DNA from: Aliiglaciecola lipolytica
GTDB lineage: Bacteria > Pseudomonadota > Gammaproteobacteria > Enterobacterales > Alteromonadaceae
DNA: 64,000 nucleotides
Assembly (NCBI RefSeq): GCF_018860635.1
Contig: NZ_JAHKPT010000025.1
Span: 229,867-293,866 of the forward strand
Direction of reading: 5' to 3'
Shown here: in pieces, positions 7,891 through 64,000 of the stretch
How positions within the stretch are numbered: the stretch's first letter is position 1
How the letters are laid out: every line of letters begins with the position of its first letter
Notes under the pieces: generated by a model
Seen by the model: the letters and a program-made list of their open reading frames with translations, nothing else
Database searches by the model: none
Told to the model about the DNA's origin: nothing
Position numbers and translations under genes: made by a program

Positions 7891-8466
7891 TTATGTCAGC
7901 AAAAATTCAAATATTTCTGGCAAATGATCGCCGTAGTTTTGGAAACTATGATCGCCTCCCTGTTCAATGGTCAGGCGACTATTCGCATATTTTTGTTCTG
8001 CTTGACGATAATCTAAGGTTTCATCATTAGTTTGCAATAGTGCCCAATACGCCTGCGGATCCTTTAATTCAGTTGTGTTTAAATCAACAAGCTGCTGAAT
8101 ATGCGGTTCTTGTAAGGTAAATTCTTGAGCAGTGTAGGGATTGATATGAGTGCCTAAAAATCCTTTCAATAACTCAAAGGGACGCACCGCAGGATTGATC
8201 AGCACGGCTTTGCCACCAAACATTTCAACCAAATGAGTGGACATAAACCCGCCCATAGAACTGCCAATAAAACCTAGCTTTTTACCTTCATATTTGCGTG
8301 CCAAGGCTTCCAACATTTGAGCTGCATCTAGCGGATAGTTGGGTACTTGCGGTACTTCCATTGTCAATTCTGAATGGTGTTGACGCACATAAGCTAGAGT
8401 TTGTTGAGCTTTAACAGATTGCGGCGAACTCATAAAACCGTGAATATAAATTAGTACATTTTCCAT
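7891..8466 (-). CDS. yqiA: YqiA-type alpha/beta-hydrolase (esterase)
   Basis: A 191-residue alpha/beta-hydrolase of the YqiA/UPF0227 type. The E. coli protein has esterase activity on short-chain substrates; the physiological substrate is unknown. The N terminus shows YIHGFMSSP (oxyanion region), the nucleophile elbow GSSMGG, a TNDETLDY stretch that probably carries the acid residue, and GGDHSF with the catalytic His. It begins directly at the end of cpdA with no spacing, so the two are probably translated from one message. Confidence 0.9.
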   Translation of the reverse strand: MENVLIYIHGFMSSPQSVKAQQTLAYVRQHHSELTMEVPQVPNYPLDAAQMLEALARKYEGKKLGFIGSSMGGFMSTHLVEMFGGKAVLINPAVRPFELLKGFLGTHINPYTAQEFTLQEPHIQQLVDLNTTELKDPQAYWALLQTNDETLDYRQAEQKYANSRLTIEQGGDHSFQNYGDHLPEIFEFLLT

Positions 8467-58001: not shown

Positions 58002-58826
58002 TTACAATGTGGTAATTTCCAGCACTTTGAGGGGGAAAAGCTTATCTGGTAGACAGTCGTACTCTAAAGGAGCAATATTCCAATCAGATAAAAAATAGAA
58101 CACTAAGGCTTTTCTCATCTTAAGTACTATTTGTCCTGACTCTAATCCGTAATCAAAGGTAATGGCTTCAGGTTTTTTTGGTTTACCATTGATACCAATT
58201 TTAATTTCAACCTCTTGATTCCAATCAGGATCAAAAGGTTTGGTCTGTTTTTCCTCAACTGAAATCTCAGAGTCACGAGAGGCAACGACTCGATTCAACT
58301 TAAAGCTTCTGAAGTCTCCTGACTTGTGGTCAAAAGCCCTGATGTACACAAAATTACCTGTTTCGATCAGTGTGTGCGGGGCAATTATCCTGCTGGATTC
58401 GCCACTGCTACGCGATAAGTAATTAATGTCTACTTTAATTCCAAGGTTGAGTGCTCTGAAAATCGGTGCGACAACCTTTAACTCCGGCATAACACTTGGA
58501 ATTCTGTAACTATTTACGTTTTTGGCAAACTTAGGCTCACACACAAGTCGTTGCGTACCAGAAGAAACTAGATCAATTGCTTCTTCTATTTGATGTTCAA
58601 AACAAGGGCTGAACCATTTTGTTGGAGCGTAGGCTCTCAATCGATGGTTATAAATAAGATTGTTCTCAGCCATTTCTTGGTAACACTTAAAGTCACGGGT
58701 GGACCAAGCTTCTTTGATTTCAAAACGATTCATTAGCTGACGTCTGTTTGTAGTTCCGAGTACAAAAGCACATAAATCGATATAACGTAGTCGTCTTTCT
58801 TGCCGAATGTCGGTGATGTTTTCCAT
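58002..58826 (-). CDS. WYL-domain transcriptional regulator
   Basis: A 274-residue regulator. Residues about 10-75 form a helix-turn-helix-type N-terminal domain (RRQLMNRFEIKEAWSTRDFKCY); about 115-200 form a WYL domain (VDINYLSRSSGESSRIIAPHTLIETG, then YIRAFDHKSGDFRSFKLNRV); the rest is a WYL C-terminal extension. WYL proteins of this type (BrxR/CapW-like) repress defence operons and respond to nucleic-acid or nucleotide signals. It is divergent from the Toprim-SMC operon with a 103-bp gap that holds direct repeats, so it probably controls that operon. Confidence 0.85.
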   Translation of the reverse strand: MENITDIRQERRLRYIDLCAFVLGTTNRRQLMNRFEIKEAWSTRDFKCYQEMAENNLIYNHRLRAYAPTKWFSPCFEHQIEEAIDLVSSGTQRLVCEPKFAKNVNSYRIPSVMPELKVVAPIFRALNLGIKVDINYLSRSSGESSRIIAPHTLIETGNFVYIRAFDHKSGDFRSFKLNRVVASRDSEISVEEKQTKPFDPDWNQEVEIKIGINGKPKKPEAITFDYGLESGQIVLKMRKALVFYFLSDWNIAPLEYDCLPDKLFPLKVLEITTL

Positions 58827-58866
58827 TGGTCAATAAAATCCCAGTTGATCTATCTACATAATATAA

Positions 58867-58897
58867 TATATAGTGCATACTAATGTATAGTGAATAT
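58867..58897. promoter_or_regulatory. Direct repeats in the WYL/Toprim divergent promoter
   Basis: Two copies of TATAGTGnATAnTA lie 17 bp apart (58867-58880 and 58884-58897) in the short gap between the WYL gene and the operon, about 35-60 bp before the first start codon. Position and spacing suit operators for the WYL regulator overlapping the operon promoter. Binding is inferred. Confidence 0.55.
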
Positions 58898-58929
58898 TAA
58901 TATACACACAAATCTTTGTGGAATGTAAA

Positions 58930-59739
58930 ATGAATTACGGCAAGCAAATTGTAAAGTACTTAAAGAAGATTGATGAAGGAAGGGCAATTGATTACGCCCA
59001 ATTCCTCAATTTATTGAATTCTCCTGAGTTAAATCTTGACGCAACTAATCGAGACTTTGAAGTGAGAAGGGTTGGGACGAATACCTATAAAGTTACGCAT
59101 ATAGCGCCTTGGCTCAGAGTTCAATTTGATAATATCATTGGAGAGATATATAAGGATCGTAATTCAGCAGCTAAACAAAACAACAGCCACGCATACAGTG
59201 TAAATGGCTCAATGCTTCTCGTCAGAGAAGGGATAATACATCCTCAGGTAGTAATGTTTGATACTGATGGAAATTACTTACCCAAACGAGAATGGCATGA
59301 TTACGCCTTATTAATTGAAAACAGACAAAATTTCATCAGCATTGATAAAACCTTATCTTTTATAAAAACATACTGCGATATCGGGGATGTAGATTTACAA
59401 AAAACATTAACAGTTTTCACCGAAGGTAACGCAATTACTAACGCTTTACACATATCATTTCTTTGTAAATTCAAGTCGATTTTCCTGTTGTTGGATGTAG
59501 ACGCTGGGGGGCTTCAGATAGCTAGTAACCTCCTCACTCTTTTACCTAATTCAAACGTAGTTTTTCTCGTACCAAGTGACATAAAAGATAGATTGAAAAT
59601 GGTAAGGGTACCAGCAAAAACAGTATCAATTGAGAAAGCCATCACACTGGGACGAAAACACCCAGAGCTAACTCATATTGCACAACTGATTTATAAAACC
59701 GAAAGAGAATTGGAGCAGGAGAGCTACCTTGATGAATAA
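58930..59739 (+). CDS. Toprim-domain protein (short JetD-like subunit)
   Basis: A 269-residue protein with a C-terminal Toprim fold: the conserved Glu in LLIENRQNF (about 130), a second acidic segment FTEGNA, and the D-x-D-x-x-G pair in LLLDVDAGGLQIAS (about 189-194). This is the Toprim style of topoisomerase VI-A and of Wadjet JetD, which cuts plasmid DNA after loop extrusion. The first 110 residues are unassigned and much shorter than the N-terminal part of usual JetD proteins of about 380-400 residues. The ATG at 58930 (GTGGA 7 nt upstream) is preferred over a GTG at 58918. It is first in the operon, overlapping the SMC gene by 8 bp. Confidence 0.78.
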   Translation: MNYGKQIVKYLKKIDEGRAIDYAQFLNLLNSPELNLDATNRDFEVRRVGTNTYKVTHIAPWLRVQFDNIIGEIYKDRNSAAKQNNSHAYSVNGSMLLVREGIIHPQVVMFDTDGNYLPKREWHDYALLIENRQNFISIDKTLSFIKTYCDIGDVDLQKTLTVFTEGNAITNALHISFLCKFKSIFLLLDVDAGGLQIASNLLTLLPNSNVVFLVPSDIKDRLKMVRVPAKTVSIEKAITLGRKHPELTHIAQLIYKTERELEQESYLDE

Positions 59740-62605
59740 TTTTGTTACTAAAGGATTATTGGCAGAGGATTACATACTTAAACGTCTAGTTTATGTTAAC
59801 TCAGCAAATCATGGGTATTCGGAGATATTACTGGATAGGCACCTTGCAATGTTTGGTGGGAACAATGTTGGAAAAACTGCGAGTCTCGCTGGCACCAAAT
59901 TGCTACTGTATCCAGAAGTTAATTTTAGCCGCTGTGAAAAGAAGTTTAAATTTGTTGGTAATAGAGGGACCTTTTCACAAGAAGACTCCTATGATTTTTA
60001 CTTTCCTGATTTAACCTCGTTCATTATTCTCGAAGTTCAGAACCCTGAGGGGTCGTTTTGTATGTTGTTATACAAAACCAACAATTACACCTACAGCCGA
60101 CTTTTCGTCCCCTTATCATTCGATGAAATGCGCCATCTTTTTTGGGATGTGGATAAAGATGATTTCAATGACGACCTGAGTGTCAAAACAGTTAAGCAGT
60201 TTGTTATCGAAAACGACGGTCTGCAAACATCGGACGCGGCAGAAATACGCTCCTTAATGTTTGAAGGTATGCGTGGTACTAAAAAGCAACGCCGCTTTTG
60301 CATTCTACCTATGAAAGATGCTCGTTTGGACTCAATTGAAGCTTTCAGGAATATTTATCAACTAGCGTTTGACATTAAAAGCTCGGAGACAGATACCTTA
60401 CCTAAAGCCATTGCCACGCTTCTTGAGATGGGCCGGGGCAGAGATGAAGAGCGACTGAGCGCAGATCTCCTTGACTTAGCAACAGACTACGAAGAACTGT
60501 TTGCAAAACAAGCGCAACTTCAAACTTTGAAAAATGCTGAGCCAATTTTCAACAGAGTGTCATCTAATTTTGAACAACTGACAAACAGTTACAAACATTA
60601 CACACTTATCCATAAATCGTTGCGACACCTGTTAAATGAAGCAAAAGAAAGCTTTGATGAAAGATACGTCAGTATGCAGAATCTTACTGATGAAGCGAGT
60701 AAACAACAATTTACTACCAGAGAAGAAGTCGAAAAAGCTAACGAGGCTTCCATTAAAGCTAAAAGCCAAGTGGAGTACTTGGAGGAACAATTAACGCTTC
60801 AGTCTAAGCGAGTAGCTGAGGTGAAAAATCTATATACTTCTTTAGGCTTTTCTTCAGTCGAAAATACTCTTGAACATCTGGACCATGAATATCGCTGCGT
60901 GGATAGCTTATTAAGAGAACTTCGCAAGGAGGATGGCGTTAAAAGACAACTCCAGAAAGAGCTAACAAAGAAAAAGCAACTTTTAGGTTCAAAAAAAGAA
61001 CTACAAAACATAATAGAAGATCAATCGAGAACGGTTGCGAGTCAGTTAAACAATTCTACAAGTGCGAGTATTTTGTACTCATTGAATCAAAATATTGCCA
61101 AAACAATAGTACCTCTGACTGAGAGTCATCGCGATGCGGTAGTCAACTTTACTTCATTATTTGACTCTGATCATGCAGGATTACTTACTTTCCTCGATAA
61201 GCCGATCAAAGGTGTCAATTTTAAAGAGATAAATCCTGAAAGAATGGTTGAAGAGGCCACTCTTGAGTTAGTTAGAGTTGAACAGCAACTTGAGATTGTG
61301 GAGCAAAATATCACCGAACAAGGCAGAGCTTTAAAAAATAATGATATTGAATCGCTAATAACGAACACCGAACAAACTTTACAAAAAGTTGAAATTCAGC
61401 GTGACAATATTCGTGCTTTAAGTGAACTCATAAGAGCCGAAGACGATACATCCAAAAAACTTAAAGATAAAAGAGATATGTATATTAAGGCGAATATCTC
61501 GTTTGAAAAAGGGCGTAATAAACTTCAAGAACACACTGCAACTGCTAATCAGTGTCAAAATAAACTTGATACCTTGAAAGATGAGTCAGCCAGACTTAAA
61601 AGGTATGAGAGTGTTTTTAATACCATCCAGAGGCATGCCGATATTGACTTTCTGTTTGAAGAGATCTCTGACGAAGTAGTACTAAATGATTCGTGGTTTG
61701 AAAAGCTATACAAATTGAGCACCGATCTGTCTTCTTTGAAAACCAGTGTTATTAGAGAATTACATCTTTTATCAGGACAGGTTCAGATCGAAGGTGTTGA
61801 TCCCCACAAACAATTCGATTCAGTTACCGCAATATCTAAAGCTGTTGACAGTTACGCAGGCGAGTACGCCACGTTACAGTATGATTTAATACAGTTGAAT
61901 ACAAGCATTTGTACTCACAATCAATTTGTTAGCAATCAGATAAAAGAACTGAAAACATCGAAACAGTTTCTTTCAAATTTCATCAAAGAAATTAATGATG
62001 AACTCAATAGTAAACTTGTTTCAAACCTCTCTGAGATCAACTTACGGCCAGAAATCAATGTACGATTTGAATCTTTACTATCTACTCTCGATAAGCAAGA
62101 TATTTCAGATGAGACATTGTTGGAGCCTGAGTTTTATCAGGCGCTGACCCAGTTTGCAGATAGTTACTTCGATAAGCGGACACGAAAACTTAAGATGCAT
62201 GACATTATTCATGCAGTGCATTATGAATATACCCTAGAAGAAACTGGTGAGCGTTTTACTAAAAGCCAGTCAGGAGGAACGACTAGTACAATAACAGCCT
62301 TCGTGCTATCGGTGTTACTTAAGAAAATCACTCCAGACTATGTATCGCTCAAGATGCCGATTATTGTGGATGAAGTGGGTACGTTAGATTTCAAAAATAC
62401 AAAAGCTACTATTCAGCAAATCAGTGAGCACGGCTTTTCAATCTTTTGTGCCACACCAACATTTTCAGGCTTTGTTAGCAAAAACGTTGGTCGTTGGATA
62501 ATGATTGATAGAGCCAAAATCAAAAAGCCACGTGTCCCAAAATGCCACATGCACATCCTACCAGAGTATATTGAAAGTTTTGGGAGTCAATCCAATGAGG
62601 CTTAA
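59732..62605 (+). CDS. SMC/MukB-like coiled-coil ATPase (JetC-like)
   Basis: A 957-residue ATPase of the SMC type. Walker A is GGNNVGKT (about 42-49); the head then continues to about 250; coiled-coil segments run from about 260 to 420 and 510 to 620; the C-terminal head has the signature QSGGTTSTITAF and Walker B PIIVDEVGTLD (about 877). It is shorter than MukB and JetC proteins (about 1100-1500), so the arms are shorter. By analogy with Wadjet it would extrude loops on circular DNA and activate the Toprim nuclease. It starts with ATG at 59732 inside the end of the Toprim gene. Confidence 0.82.
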   Translation: MNNFVTKGLLAEDYILKRLVYVNSANHGYSEILLDRHLAMFGGNNVGKTASLAGTKLLLYPEVNFSRCEKKFKFVGNRGTFSQEDSYDFYFPDLTSFIILEVQNPEGSFCMLLYKTNNYTYSRLFVPLSFDEMRHLFWDVDKDDFNDDLSVKTVKQFVIENDGLQTSDAAEIRSLMFEGMRGTKKQRRFCILPMKDARLDSIEAFRNIYQLAFDIKSSETDTLPKAIATLLEMGRGRDEERLSADLLDLATDYEELFAKQAQLQTLKNAEPIFNRVSSNFEQLTNSYKHYTLIHKSLRHLLNEAKESFDERYVSMQNLTDEASKQQFTTREEVEKANEASIKAKSQVEYLEEQLTLQSKRVAEVKNLYTSLGFSSVENTLEHLDHEYRCVDSLLRELRKEDGVKRQLQKELTKKKQLLGSKKELQNIIEDQSRTVASQLNNSTSASILYSLNQNIAKTIVPLTESHRDAVVNFTSLFDSDHAGLLTFLDKPIKGVNFKEINPERMVEEATLELVRVEQQLEIVEQNITEQGRALKNNDIESLITNTEQTLQKVEIQRDNIRALSELIRAEDDTSKKLKDKRDMYIKANISFEKGRNKLQEHTATANQCQNKLDTLKDESARLKRYESVFNTIQRHADIDFLFEEISDEVVLNDSWFEKLYKLSTDLSSLKTSVIRELHLLSGQVQIEGVDPHKQFDSVTAISKAVDSYAGEYATLQYDLIQLNTSICTHNQFVSNQIKELKTSKQFLSNFIKEINDELNSKLVSNLSEINLRPEINVRFESLLSTLDKQDISDETLLEPEFYQALTQFADSYFDKRTRKLKMHDIIHAVHYEYTLEETGERFTKSQSGGTTSTITAFVLSVLLKKITPDYVSLKMPIIVDEVGTLDFKNTKATIQQISEHGFSIFCATPTFSGFVSKNVGRWIMIDRAKIKKPRVPKCHMHILPEYIESFGSQSNEA

Positions 62606-63965
62606 TCGTGATGTGATCCTCAGTTCTATCCTCAAGCATCAAAATAGTTTTCTAAAAATATTGGATTTTATTGACAAGGAAGGTGGGGTGCCAGAGATAC
62701 CAGAAAAACTTTTTCTAGATTTGTATAGTCATTACATTTGTGAAGATGATGATCAAAATGTTCATGCGCAGTTAAGTTTGGCGGCCTTACTAAAGAACGG
62801 AGTATTCATTCATCATGATAAGAATACTGGGACCATTTCTGTTGCGGATGTAATCATCAATATGCTCCGGTTTATAGATGTAAAACGTGCGAGGGAATTG
62901 AACAGGCATGATCTAGAAGATTTGCGCCAGCGTGTGTCTGACTTTGTAGATAGGTTATTGGAGTGCGCCTATCTGGAAGATGATGATACAAGAGAACTGT
63001 ATGGGAGCTTCTATCGATTACTTAGCGAAATACATTCGAAGATAAAAGAAAATGTATCGGCACTGGATGCACAAGTAAAGCGCGTCTCGCAGCAATACAA
63101 GGAATTCAACGCAGGGGATAGTGAAGCCTCGGTTTTTGAATTATATGACCGTGTAACAGATCTTTACAGCAAATATGTATTGCCGTGTTATGAATTTATT
63201 GACCCAAATATGGAAATGAAAGGAAAAAGAACTTTAACTCAGTCTATTGAGCAGTTAATAAAGCATCTCGCAGATGTACCTGCAAAACTGCATGAGTCAA
63301 ACCGTCTTCAATACCGTTTTACGGCAATTAGCAGTTATTATAAAGACATAGGGCTACTCGTCCGTAAACTTAAGCAATACTCAACTTATTTGGCTCAGGA
63401 TCGCGATAGATACATTGCAATTGACAATGCATTCAATGCCTTAATGGATAATGTTGTGCCATTACGCCACGGAAAACAGAAAAATAAGTATTTAACACCA
63501 AATGCACCAATATTCTTAACGCTGTCAACTATAGATGGGTTGAGAGACCTACGTACAAACCAAGCACCAAAATTTAACTGGGATGAAGGTAAAACAACAC
63601 TTCGATTCAAAGAATATTTGAATATGCTCCAAAGTGTGGAAAGTAAACCTAAAAAACAACAGATCAAACCTTTACCAGAAGAGGTCCGAATCGAAGAGGA
63701 AAGACAGATAGAGATTGCTAGATTAATAGCTGAGGCCGGACTTCCAATCTCAATCCCCGACGTACATAAGTTCGTATTTGAGTTGCTAAGCCAAAACTTG
63801 GATAGTTTTTGGTTAGGAGACGTTTTGTTTGGTATTGAAGAGGTGATGCCGTATGCACCATTAGAGCATTTGGTCTTTAGTCGAGAGCGACGGAGGCAGC
63901 AGGATGAGCAATATTACTTGGAATATTTAAAAATTGAATTAGCACAAGGTGAACTGGATGTATAA
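62595..63965 (+). CDS. MukF/JetA-like kleisin subunit candidate
   Basis: A 456-residue largely helical protein. The frame is open from 62505, but the ATG at 62595 overlaps the SMC stop by 11 bp, as in the rest of the operon. The N-terminal winged-helix-like part (about 20-90) followed by long helices and a C-terminal small domain match the layout of kleisins of MukBEF/Wadjet type, and its place next to the SMC gene supports the role of bridging the ATPase heads. Sequence identity to known families could not be judged by eye. Confidence 0.65.
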   Translation: MRLNRDVILSSILKHQNSFLKILDFIDKEGGVPEIPEKLFLDLYSHYICEDDDQNVHAQLSLAALLKNGVFIHHDKNTGTISVADVIINMLRFIDVKRARELNRHDLEDLRQRVSDFVDRLLECAYLEDDDTRELYGSFYRLLSEIHSKIKENVSALDAQVKRVSQQYKEFNAGDSEASVFELYDRVTDLYSKYVLPCYEFIDPNMEMKGKRTLTQSIEQLIKHLADVPAKLHESNRLQYRFTAISSYYKDIGLLVRKLKQYSTYLAQDRDRYIAIDNAFNALMDNVVPLRHGKQKNKYLTPNAPIFLTLSTIDGLRDLRTNQAPKFNWDEGKTTLRFKEYLNMLQSVESKPKKQQIKPLPEEVRIEEERQIEIARLIAEAGLPISIPDVHKFVFELLSQNLDSFWLGDVLFGIEEVMPYAPLEHLVFSRERRRQQDEQYYLEYLKIELAQGELDV

Positions 63966-64000
63966 CACTGACTTGAGCGTAGAAATCTACCAAACACTAA
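63958..64000 (+). CDS. Start of a further operon gene, probably MukE/JetB-like (cut by the window end)
   Basis: An ATG at 63958 overlaps the preceding stop by 8 bp and opens a frame (MYNTDLSVEIYQTL) that runs to the window end. Its coupled position after the kleisin-like gene is where the small winged-helix subunit (MukE/JetB) would be expected. Only 14 codons are visible, so the product cannot be confirmed. Confidence 0.45.
   Translation, partial: MYNTDLSVEIYQTL

Follow-up and report, generated by a model that had tools for sequence, protein, structure and literature searches.

The right-hand end of a 64,000-nucleotide stretch of the Aliiglaciecola lipolytica genome (hereafter the window, positions 229867–293866 of a 509-kb contig in a 5.03-Mb genome) carries an operon in which a short Toprim protein (D) precedes a structural maintenance of chromosomes (SMC) ATPase (C). 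Wadjet systems combine a DNA motor with a DNA-cutting enzyme and, in known cases, destroy invading plasmids. A preliminary description of the window had proposed a Wadjet-like operon, and its inventory, i.e., a divergent WYL gene followed by genes for a Toprim protein (269 amino acids), an SMC protein (957 amino acids), a 456-amino acid protein (A) and the start of a further gene (B), agreed with the open reading frames (ORFs), as did the gene overlaps of 8–11 bp (D/C 8 bp, C/A 11 bp, A/B 8 bp). Reading the contig beyond base 64000 revealed the order D-C-A-B, i.e., Toprim-SMC-kleisin-KITE. The features are listed below, where the prefix L002 denotes positions in the fetched stretch of this locus.

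58002–58826, minus strand: WYL regulator of the BrxR/CapW family, 274 amino acids (Pfam WYL, 2e-11; matches to PDB sequences)
58827–58929, no strand: 103-bp intergenic region with a putative operator (near-palindrome and direct repeat)
58930–59739, plus strand: D, predicted short JetD/MksG-like Toprim nuclease, 269 amino acids from the ATG (PADLOC JetD1, fold, residues)
59732–62605, plus strand: C, SMC ATPase, 957 amino acids from the ATG (motifs, SMC tree)
62595–63965, plus strand: A, probable kleisin of MukF/JetA architecture, 456 amino acids from the ATG (AlphaFold2 model, Foldseek, VIA-align)
63958–64521 in window-equivalent numbering (L002:7825–8388; the window holds 63958–64000), plus strand: B, KITE subunit (MksE/JetB-like), 187 amino acids (Pfam MksE)
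L002:8407–9399, beyond the window, plus strand: CD-NTase, 330 amino acids (PADLOC CBASS cyclase)
L002:9399–10346, beyond the window, plus strand: S_4TM effector, 315 amino acids (PADLOC, Pfam S_4TM)

The D protein was matched by the PADLOC profiles JetD1 (E-value of 3.6e-7) and JetD3 (6.4e-5), and scored 20.5 bits against Pfam JetD_C (cut-off 22) and 22.1 bits in a six-frame genome search; two of four other family members scanned (L023 and L027) passed the same Pfam cut-off. An AlphaFold2 model based on 12 relatives (pLDDT of 87, pTM of 0.65) bore out the Toprim fold. Specifically, VIA-align of this model yielded Z-scores of 13.6 with Corynebacterium glutamicum MksG (8b7f; 153 residues at 2.9 Å, the best among Foldseek's candidates), 10.8 with Top6A (1d3y) and 10.5 with Pseudomonas aeruginosa JetD (7til), all spanning residues 91 or 94 to 269. 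Foldseek itself returned one match with an E-value below 0.001 (topoisomerase VI, 9o8p; 1.1e-4), the next being JetD 7til (5e-3), and a D profile compared with PDB sequences found T7 primase Toprim matches alone, at 0.09 or worse. The Toprim residues of D are E130-N131, D189-x-D191 and E262-Q263-E264, and alignment of 20 D proteins from D-C-A-B loci with 14 type I D proteins showed E130 (singled out beforehand as the residue to mutate, and indeed the invariant Toprim glutamate), N131 and D189 in 20/20 and 14/14, respectively. D191 and E264 were each present in 19/20 and 14/14, and E262 in 20/20, with either E or D in type I, so that the E, DxD, (E/D)QE pattern is common to both sets. In MksG, E236 and D279 mutants had drastically impaired nuclease activity (PMC10123090). 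As a side observation, H87 was found in 18/20 D-C-A-B D proteins and is unconserved in type I JetD; it lies ahead of the Toprim domain, in a loop that was modelled with lower confidence.

Judging from the JetD1 profile, in which position 248 pairs with residue 127 of D, the protein lacks about 120 residues at its N-terminus, in line with the proposed loss of most of the N-terminal arm; at 269 amino acids overall, D is not a full-length JetD with an N-terminal DUF3322 region. Topoisomerase VI 9o0g was the sole displayed VIA-align row aligned from residue 1 (219 residues, root-mean-square deviation (rmsd) of 8.9), a weak indication that the N-terminal part may resemble Top6A but be oriented differently. 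D seems to keep a Top6A/Spo11-like layout, in which a winged-helix-like part precedes the Toprim domain, while lacking the long N-terminal extension of JetD and, therefore, probably docks differently on the motor.

The identity of C as an SMC protein followed from its Walker A (GGNNVGKT), signature (QSGGTT) and Walker B (IIVDE) motifs, read from the sequence, while a C profile retrieved coiled-coil proteins among PDB sequences. B proved to be MksE-like (Pfam PF21980, 1.3e-12, above the gathering cut-off), as expected for a MukE/JetB relative to the right of base 64000. For A, an AlphaFold2 model from 8 sequences (pLDDT of 74) returned MukBEF, MukE-MukF, MukBEF and JetABC (8dk2) entries as its first four Foldseek matches (E-values of 3.6e-3 to 7.5e-2), the matched chains presumably being MukF/JetA because of their lengths and the presence of MukF 1t98 at rank 8. 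VIA-align of A gave Z-scores of 13.5 with MukE-MukF 3euh (275 residues across 1–296) and 13.3 with MukF 1t98, with large inter-domain shifts (rmsd of about 12), and A is probably a kleisin closest to MukF/JetA. Structural matches of A to STAT, SPX, syntaxin and CorA were set aside, as they involve the helical bundle alone (about 100–297) whereas MukF covers 1–296; profile matches of A and C to CorA, relaxase and nitrate-reductase delta families did not reach the curated cut-offs and were attributed to noise from coiled coils. The locus thus holds an SMC protein by its motifs, a KITE by Pfam, a JetD/MksG-type Toprim protein with E, DxD and EQE, and, at moderate strength and from predicted structure, a kleisin.

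Relatives of the locus were selected by similarity to C or D and not by gene order, and D-C-A-B was nevertheless the order in 20/20 loci with all four genes (the window, L010, L011, L014, L015, L016, L017, L019, L021, L023, L024, L027, L028, L079, L081, L145, L146, L149, L150 and L151, of which the window, L014 and L021 are near-copies, as are L149 and L150, and L019 and L145 are close). Two small genes separate C from A in L011, and A of L019 was assigned by position and alignment. Four partial loci (L025, with a broken SMC frame, L026, L030 and L080) were consistent with this order so far as present, and sizes were consistent throughout the family (SMC of about 950–1030 and D of about 260–290 amino acids). 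Since the arrangement recurs in relatives with an SMC only 20–46% identical, it is not due to chance. In comparison, among 18 reference Wadjet loci (18 of 26 JetD_C matches, fetched with their surroundings), the Toprim gene came after the SMC gene in 18/18, which is the customary, though not a strictly defining, arrangement of type I, and A-B-C-D was resolved in 13 with A and B assigned by position and size; in L090, L092, L093, L094 and L107, A and B were off contig or not resolved by simple ORF calling. JetD1 (type I) was the best match for 8/8 reference D proteins scanned. The reversed order of the preliminary description therefore stands as D-C-A-B, although it is a rearrangement and not a strict reversal of A-B-C-D.

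In locus L148 (6643–13115, genome G020), which is outside the 20-locus count, a D nuclease of the family immediately precedes a MukB-like condensin arranged as C-B-A; the D lineage thus occurs with SMCs of two different lineages. Solo D genes without adjoining SMC genes were observed in two genomes of one genus (L018, 4615–5502; L147, 6581–7414), and a MukB-like SMC query had no match in either genome. In the D tree, D of L148, L018 and L147 fell among the D-C-A-B D proteins.

Within the order, the D family was detected in 7/295 genomes by single-sequence search and in 13/394 by profile, the latter comprising nine D-C-A-B loci, one D-C-B-A locus, two solo D genes and one fragment with stops. 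Within the class, the SMC profile matched in 19/369 genomes, over most of its length in four (the window's genome included), and two restrictive peptide patterns, scanned across genome contigs, yielded 11 loci as a lower bound. D-C-A-B was also present on large plasmids (five plasmid records matched the window SMC, two over most of it). In viral contigs, none of 99 pattern matches was confirmed with the SMC profile, and the window SMC had no match in phage records.

The lineage of C was examined in an SMC tree of the head domain (42 rows, 414 columns), which leaves out the partial loci L025, L030 and L080, the near-copies L014 and L020, the later finds L145, L146, L149, L150 and L151, and the reference loci L085, L090, L093 and L107. 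"Short MksB-type" and "MukB-like" are working labels here, Escherichia coli MukB and P. aeruginosa MksB being absent from the tree. The 15 D-C-A-B SMCs formed one group (support 91/96), joined by a 100/100 branch with six short MksB-type SMCs, three MukB-like C-B-A SMCs and one Persicobacter SMC. All 15 type I JetC rows lay on the opposite side of this branch, together with two SMCs without a detected Toprim gene, which separates the D-C-A-B SMC from type I JetC.

Type I Wadjet (JetABCD/MksBEFG, including C. glutamicum MksG 8b7f and P. aeruginosa JetD 7til) thus has the same four subunit classes, yet differs from the present operon in SMC lineage, in order (A-B-C-D) and in the size of both SMC (1131–1231 vs. 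957 amino acids, confirming the shortened SMC noted earlier) and D (375–439, as longest ORFs, vs. 269 amino acids). By kleisin and KITE profiles, the closest systems were those of the short MksB type (L082 and L083), with SMCs of 936 and 917 and D proteins of 277 and 287 amino acids, and likewise NN in Walker A. In hhalign comparisons, the D-C-A-B KITE matched theirs at 1.3e-11 vs. 0.007 for type I, and the kleisin at 3.2e-6 (three kleisin rows) vs. 0.19, while KITEs of the type I and short systems matched each other at 1.6e-6. The D profile was about equally close to type I D (3.4e-7) and short-system D (3.2e-6). The short systems nevertheless differ in having the order A-B-C-D, an SMC clade of their own (100/99) and a D that matches DUF7281 (L083 above and L082 below the cut-off) and not JetD_C. 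A further short-SMC operon with order A-B-C-D was seen on Pseudomonas plasmid pMPPla107 (L013); the 308-amino acid gene after its C may not encode a Toprim protein, given that it lacked a Pfam match and its Toprim residues did not align. MukB-like C-B-A condensins (on contig 27 of the window's own genome and in G006 and G020) have an SMC related by tree to D-C-A-B but of about 1230 amino acids, and their KITE precedes the kleisin (by position and size). The copy in the own genome (L131, 2775–8331) is a separate SMC-KITE-kleisin operon without a Toprim gene. For C-B-A, the kleisin and KITE profile comparison was uninformative because the L089 rows are probably wrong ORFs.

Taken together, these data identify D-C-A-B as a real, conserved, rearranged and shortened lineage of the Wadjet group, joined here with a CBASS (cyclic oligonucleotide-based antiphage signalling system) in a mobile cassette. 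Subunit classes, catalytic and ATPase motifs, gene order, SMC lineage and cassette mobility are supported by the present data. We consider it likely (probability of about 0.78) that the D-C-A-B proteins form an SMC nuclease of four subunits, belonging to the MukBEF-like (Mks)/Wadjet group, which, by analogy with type I, would restrict plasmids. In such a machine, C would dimerise into the SMC motor, A would bridge its ATPase heads as the kleisin, B would act as the KITE, and D would be a metal-dependent Toprim endonuclease acting as a dimer. By the same analogy, from which assembly, loop extrusion, size sensing, cleavage and plasmid specificity are all inferred, the motor would extrude DNA loops and, on a small closed circle, would run out of DNA, stall and bend the DNA into the D dimer, which would cut it and so cause small plasmids to be lost. 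Wadjet/MksBEF complexes have been described to recognize circular DNA, upon which JetD/MksG is activated (PMC10512200), and loop extrusion has been proposed to favour cleavage when the DNA is bent enough (PMC13040014).

Several observations weigh against this interpretation. Neither C (best E-value of about 0.01 against SMC or JetC models) nor A (against Wadjet profiles) had a significant match in PADLOC, Pfam or NCBIfam, and the kleisin match of A was individually weak, with no Foldseek E-value under 0.001 and a STAT coiled coil tying with MukF (Z-score of 13.6). The first Walker A glycine is replaced by A in L011, L016 and L019, and the signature reads QSN for QSG in these three and in L081; among the D proteins, that of L017 carries E in place of the second DxD aspartate, and in that of L028 the final E of EQE is replaced by Q. 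Moreover, the 91/96 support of the D-C-A-B SMC group was not starred, and the D-C-A-B nucleases did not form a single clade in the D tree (three changes), where D proteins of type I, of D-C-B-A and of solo genes lay among them.

A divergent Wadjet of type II or III with shuffled genes seems improbable, though it is the strongest competitor. The JetD3 model matched as many D family members as JetD1 did (7/12 each), single SMC family members matched JetC2 (1.6e-4) and JetC3 (3.7e-4), and JetC of types II and III is unplaced on the SMC tree, where it has no rows, as retrieval gave only weak matches to type III models and, for type II, no loci at all (JetD2 matched nowhere, JetD3 weakly in 8/150 genomes). 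Nevertheless, at an E-value of 0.001, neither the window SMC nor any of the eight kleisins scanned matched the JetA/JetC models, and the consistent sizes across the family also speak against such a shuffled derivative. With regard to known subtypes, the PADLOC Wadjet profiles gave no exact match, as only one of the window's four subunits was detected at E<0.001, i.e., D, and weakly so; this answer leaves types II and III unplaced on the SMC tree.

Less probable still is an MksBEF-type accessory condensin that acts on the chromosome, in which the Toprim partner would be a topology or repair factor and not a defence nuclease. Such a role would suit the grouping of the D-C-A-B SMC with short MksB-type and MukB-like SMCs and not with type I JetC, and P. 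aeruginosa MksBEF is a chromosome-segregation condensin (PMC7485682). It fits poorly, however, with the rare and patchy occurrence of D-C-A-B (9/394 genomes), its presence on plasmids and in a mobile cassette, its defence neighbours and BrxR/CapW regulator, and the other MukB-like condensin of the host. Finally, a Lamassu-like system, i.e., an SMC-like LmuB with an LmuA effector and, to our knowledge, no kleisin or KITE, is very improbable, since LmuB was matched by only 1/8 SMC family members (4.4e-7) and by window A at 0.013 within its helical bundle (residues 100–310), while D-C-A-B has kleisin-like and KITE subunits and a JetD/MksG-like nuclease.

Returning to the SMC nuclease of the Mks/Wadjet group, D-C-A-B is probably a poorly described subtype that has not yet been described as such. 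Titles, abstracts and passages of the literature (supplements not covered) held no description of a D-C-A-B Wadjet, and Wadjet research has mostly addressed type I (PMC10586767). A 2025 survey defined the whole Mks/Wadjet group while allowing SMCs of >890 amino acids and a flanking MksG, and its operon list could already contain D-C-A-B loci (PMC7617805). In two annotated plasmid relatives, D, C, A and B are each labelled "hypothetical protein"; as current annotation almost entirely overlooks D-C-A-B, counts of Wadjet-group defence may be too low. A shorter SMC with a stripped-down nuclease would reveal which parts of JetD activation requires, and whether the size of the circle being sensed depends on the length of the arms.

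The divergent WYL protein matched the PDB sequences 7qfz (2.8e-37), CapW 7tb6 (5.4e-21) and BrxR 7t8k (1.1e-19), and BrxR homologues are known to adjoin many defence systems, Wadjet and CBASS among them (PMC9122601). The region between WYL and D contains a 17-bp direct repeat (58864–58880/58881–58897) and a near-palindrome with a single mismatched pair (58890–58907), which may form a putative operator. This region is largely conserved in L020 and L021 (one palindrome base differs), and AT-rich palindromes were also seen in the WYL-D interval of L010, L025, L023 and L150, with none reported in that of L016. On the Methylophaga plasmid of L010, the gap (8061–8168) holds a 44-bp palindrome of TATAAATATTTATA-like repeats with one mismatched pair, a candidate operator. 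WYL genes adjoin D in 12/24 loci (L080 judged by eye). No promoter-like site was listed on the plus strand in L002 6369–8996, making a single transcript plausible; such sites were no commoner than in shuffled sequences (26 vs. a mean of 29.7). A BrxR/CapW-type repressor thus probably controls one transcript that also carries the two-gene CBASS.

This CBASS consists of the CD-NTase (PADLOC, 6.3e-143), starting after an 18-bp gap behind B, and the 4TM effector (PADLOC, 7.7e-121; Pfam S_4TM, 1.5e-87), which overlaps it by 1 bp; both lie outside the window. CBASS with CD-NTase and S-4TM, and BrxR/CapW regulators, are known elements that here share one cassette, and apparently one transcript, with a Wadjet-like operon. 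An 8,466-bp block (L002 1863–10328, window-equivalent 57996–66461), in which the CBASS (L002:8407–10346, window-equivalent 64540–66479) moves along with D-C-A-B, matched L020 and L021, from two other genomes, at 95%. The block extends from 6 bp past the stop codon of the WYL gene to 18 bp short of the end of the 4TM gene. The fetched stretches of L002 and L020/L021 had no further match at an E-value of 1e-5, i.e., the flanks are unrelated; since L020 and L021 share their own flanks (98% over 14.3 kb), the block occupies two genomic contexts and not three. In the window copy as well as that of L020, all seven cassette genes have open reading frames (protein identity of 91–97%), and the named carriers of near-copies are Alteromonadaceae. 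The cassette might constitute a coupled two-stage immunity, in which circular DNA is restricted by the short-armed SMC nuclease, while CBASS, expressed from one BrxR/CapW-controlled transcript with it, acts as an abortive back-up or is triggered by nuclease action on invading DNA, but we regard this as speculative and rather unlikely. With Wadjet and CBASS in a single unit, whether two unrelated immune systems are regulated jointly could be tested directly.

Among loci other than L079–L081, phmmer with the window cyclase and effector found them in the three cassette near-copies alone, and CBASS is no conserved part of the D-C-A-B system. Other CBASS types may have been missed, because phmmer did not find the Colwellia CBASS that PADLOC detected, and PADLOC was applied to some neighbours alone. 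Further neighbours include GmrSD (L029) and an IetA-like ATPase (L027), each just before D, and PIN and GreAB-C genes downstream in L010. The remaining neighbours scanned (a subset) showed no defence match or had housekeeping domains, and a TIR match by PADLOC (residues 26–115), in a protein encoded upstream of D in L081, was rejected, as Pfam shows cNMP-binding and rhodanese domains in that protein. In Colwellia (L028, 3327–8136), a type II CBASS (cyclase, E1-E2, JAB and SAVED-HNH effector) ends 68 bp before D, and the SMC nuclease-CBASS pairing may have arisen at least twice, with cyclase and 4TM downstream here and type II SAVED-HNH upstream in Colwellia. The JAB ORF of the latter looks short (101 amino acids vs. 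profiles of about 160).

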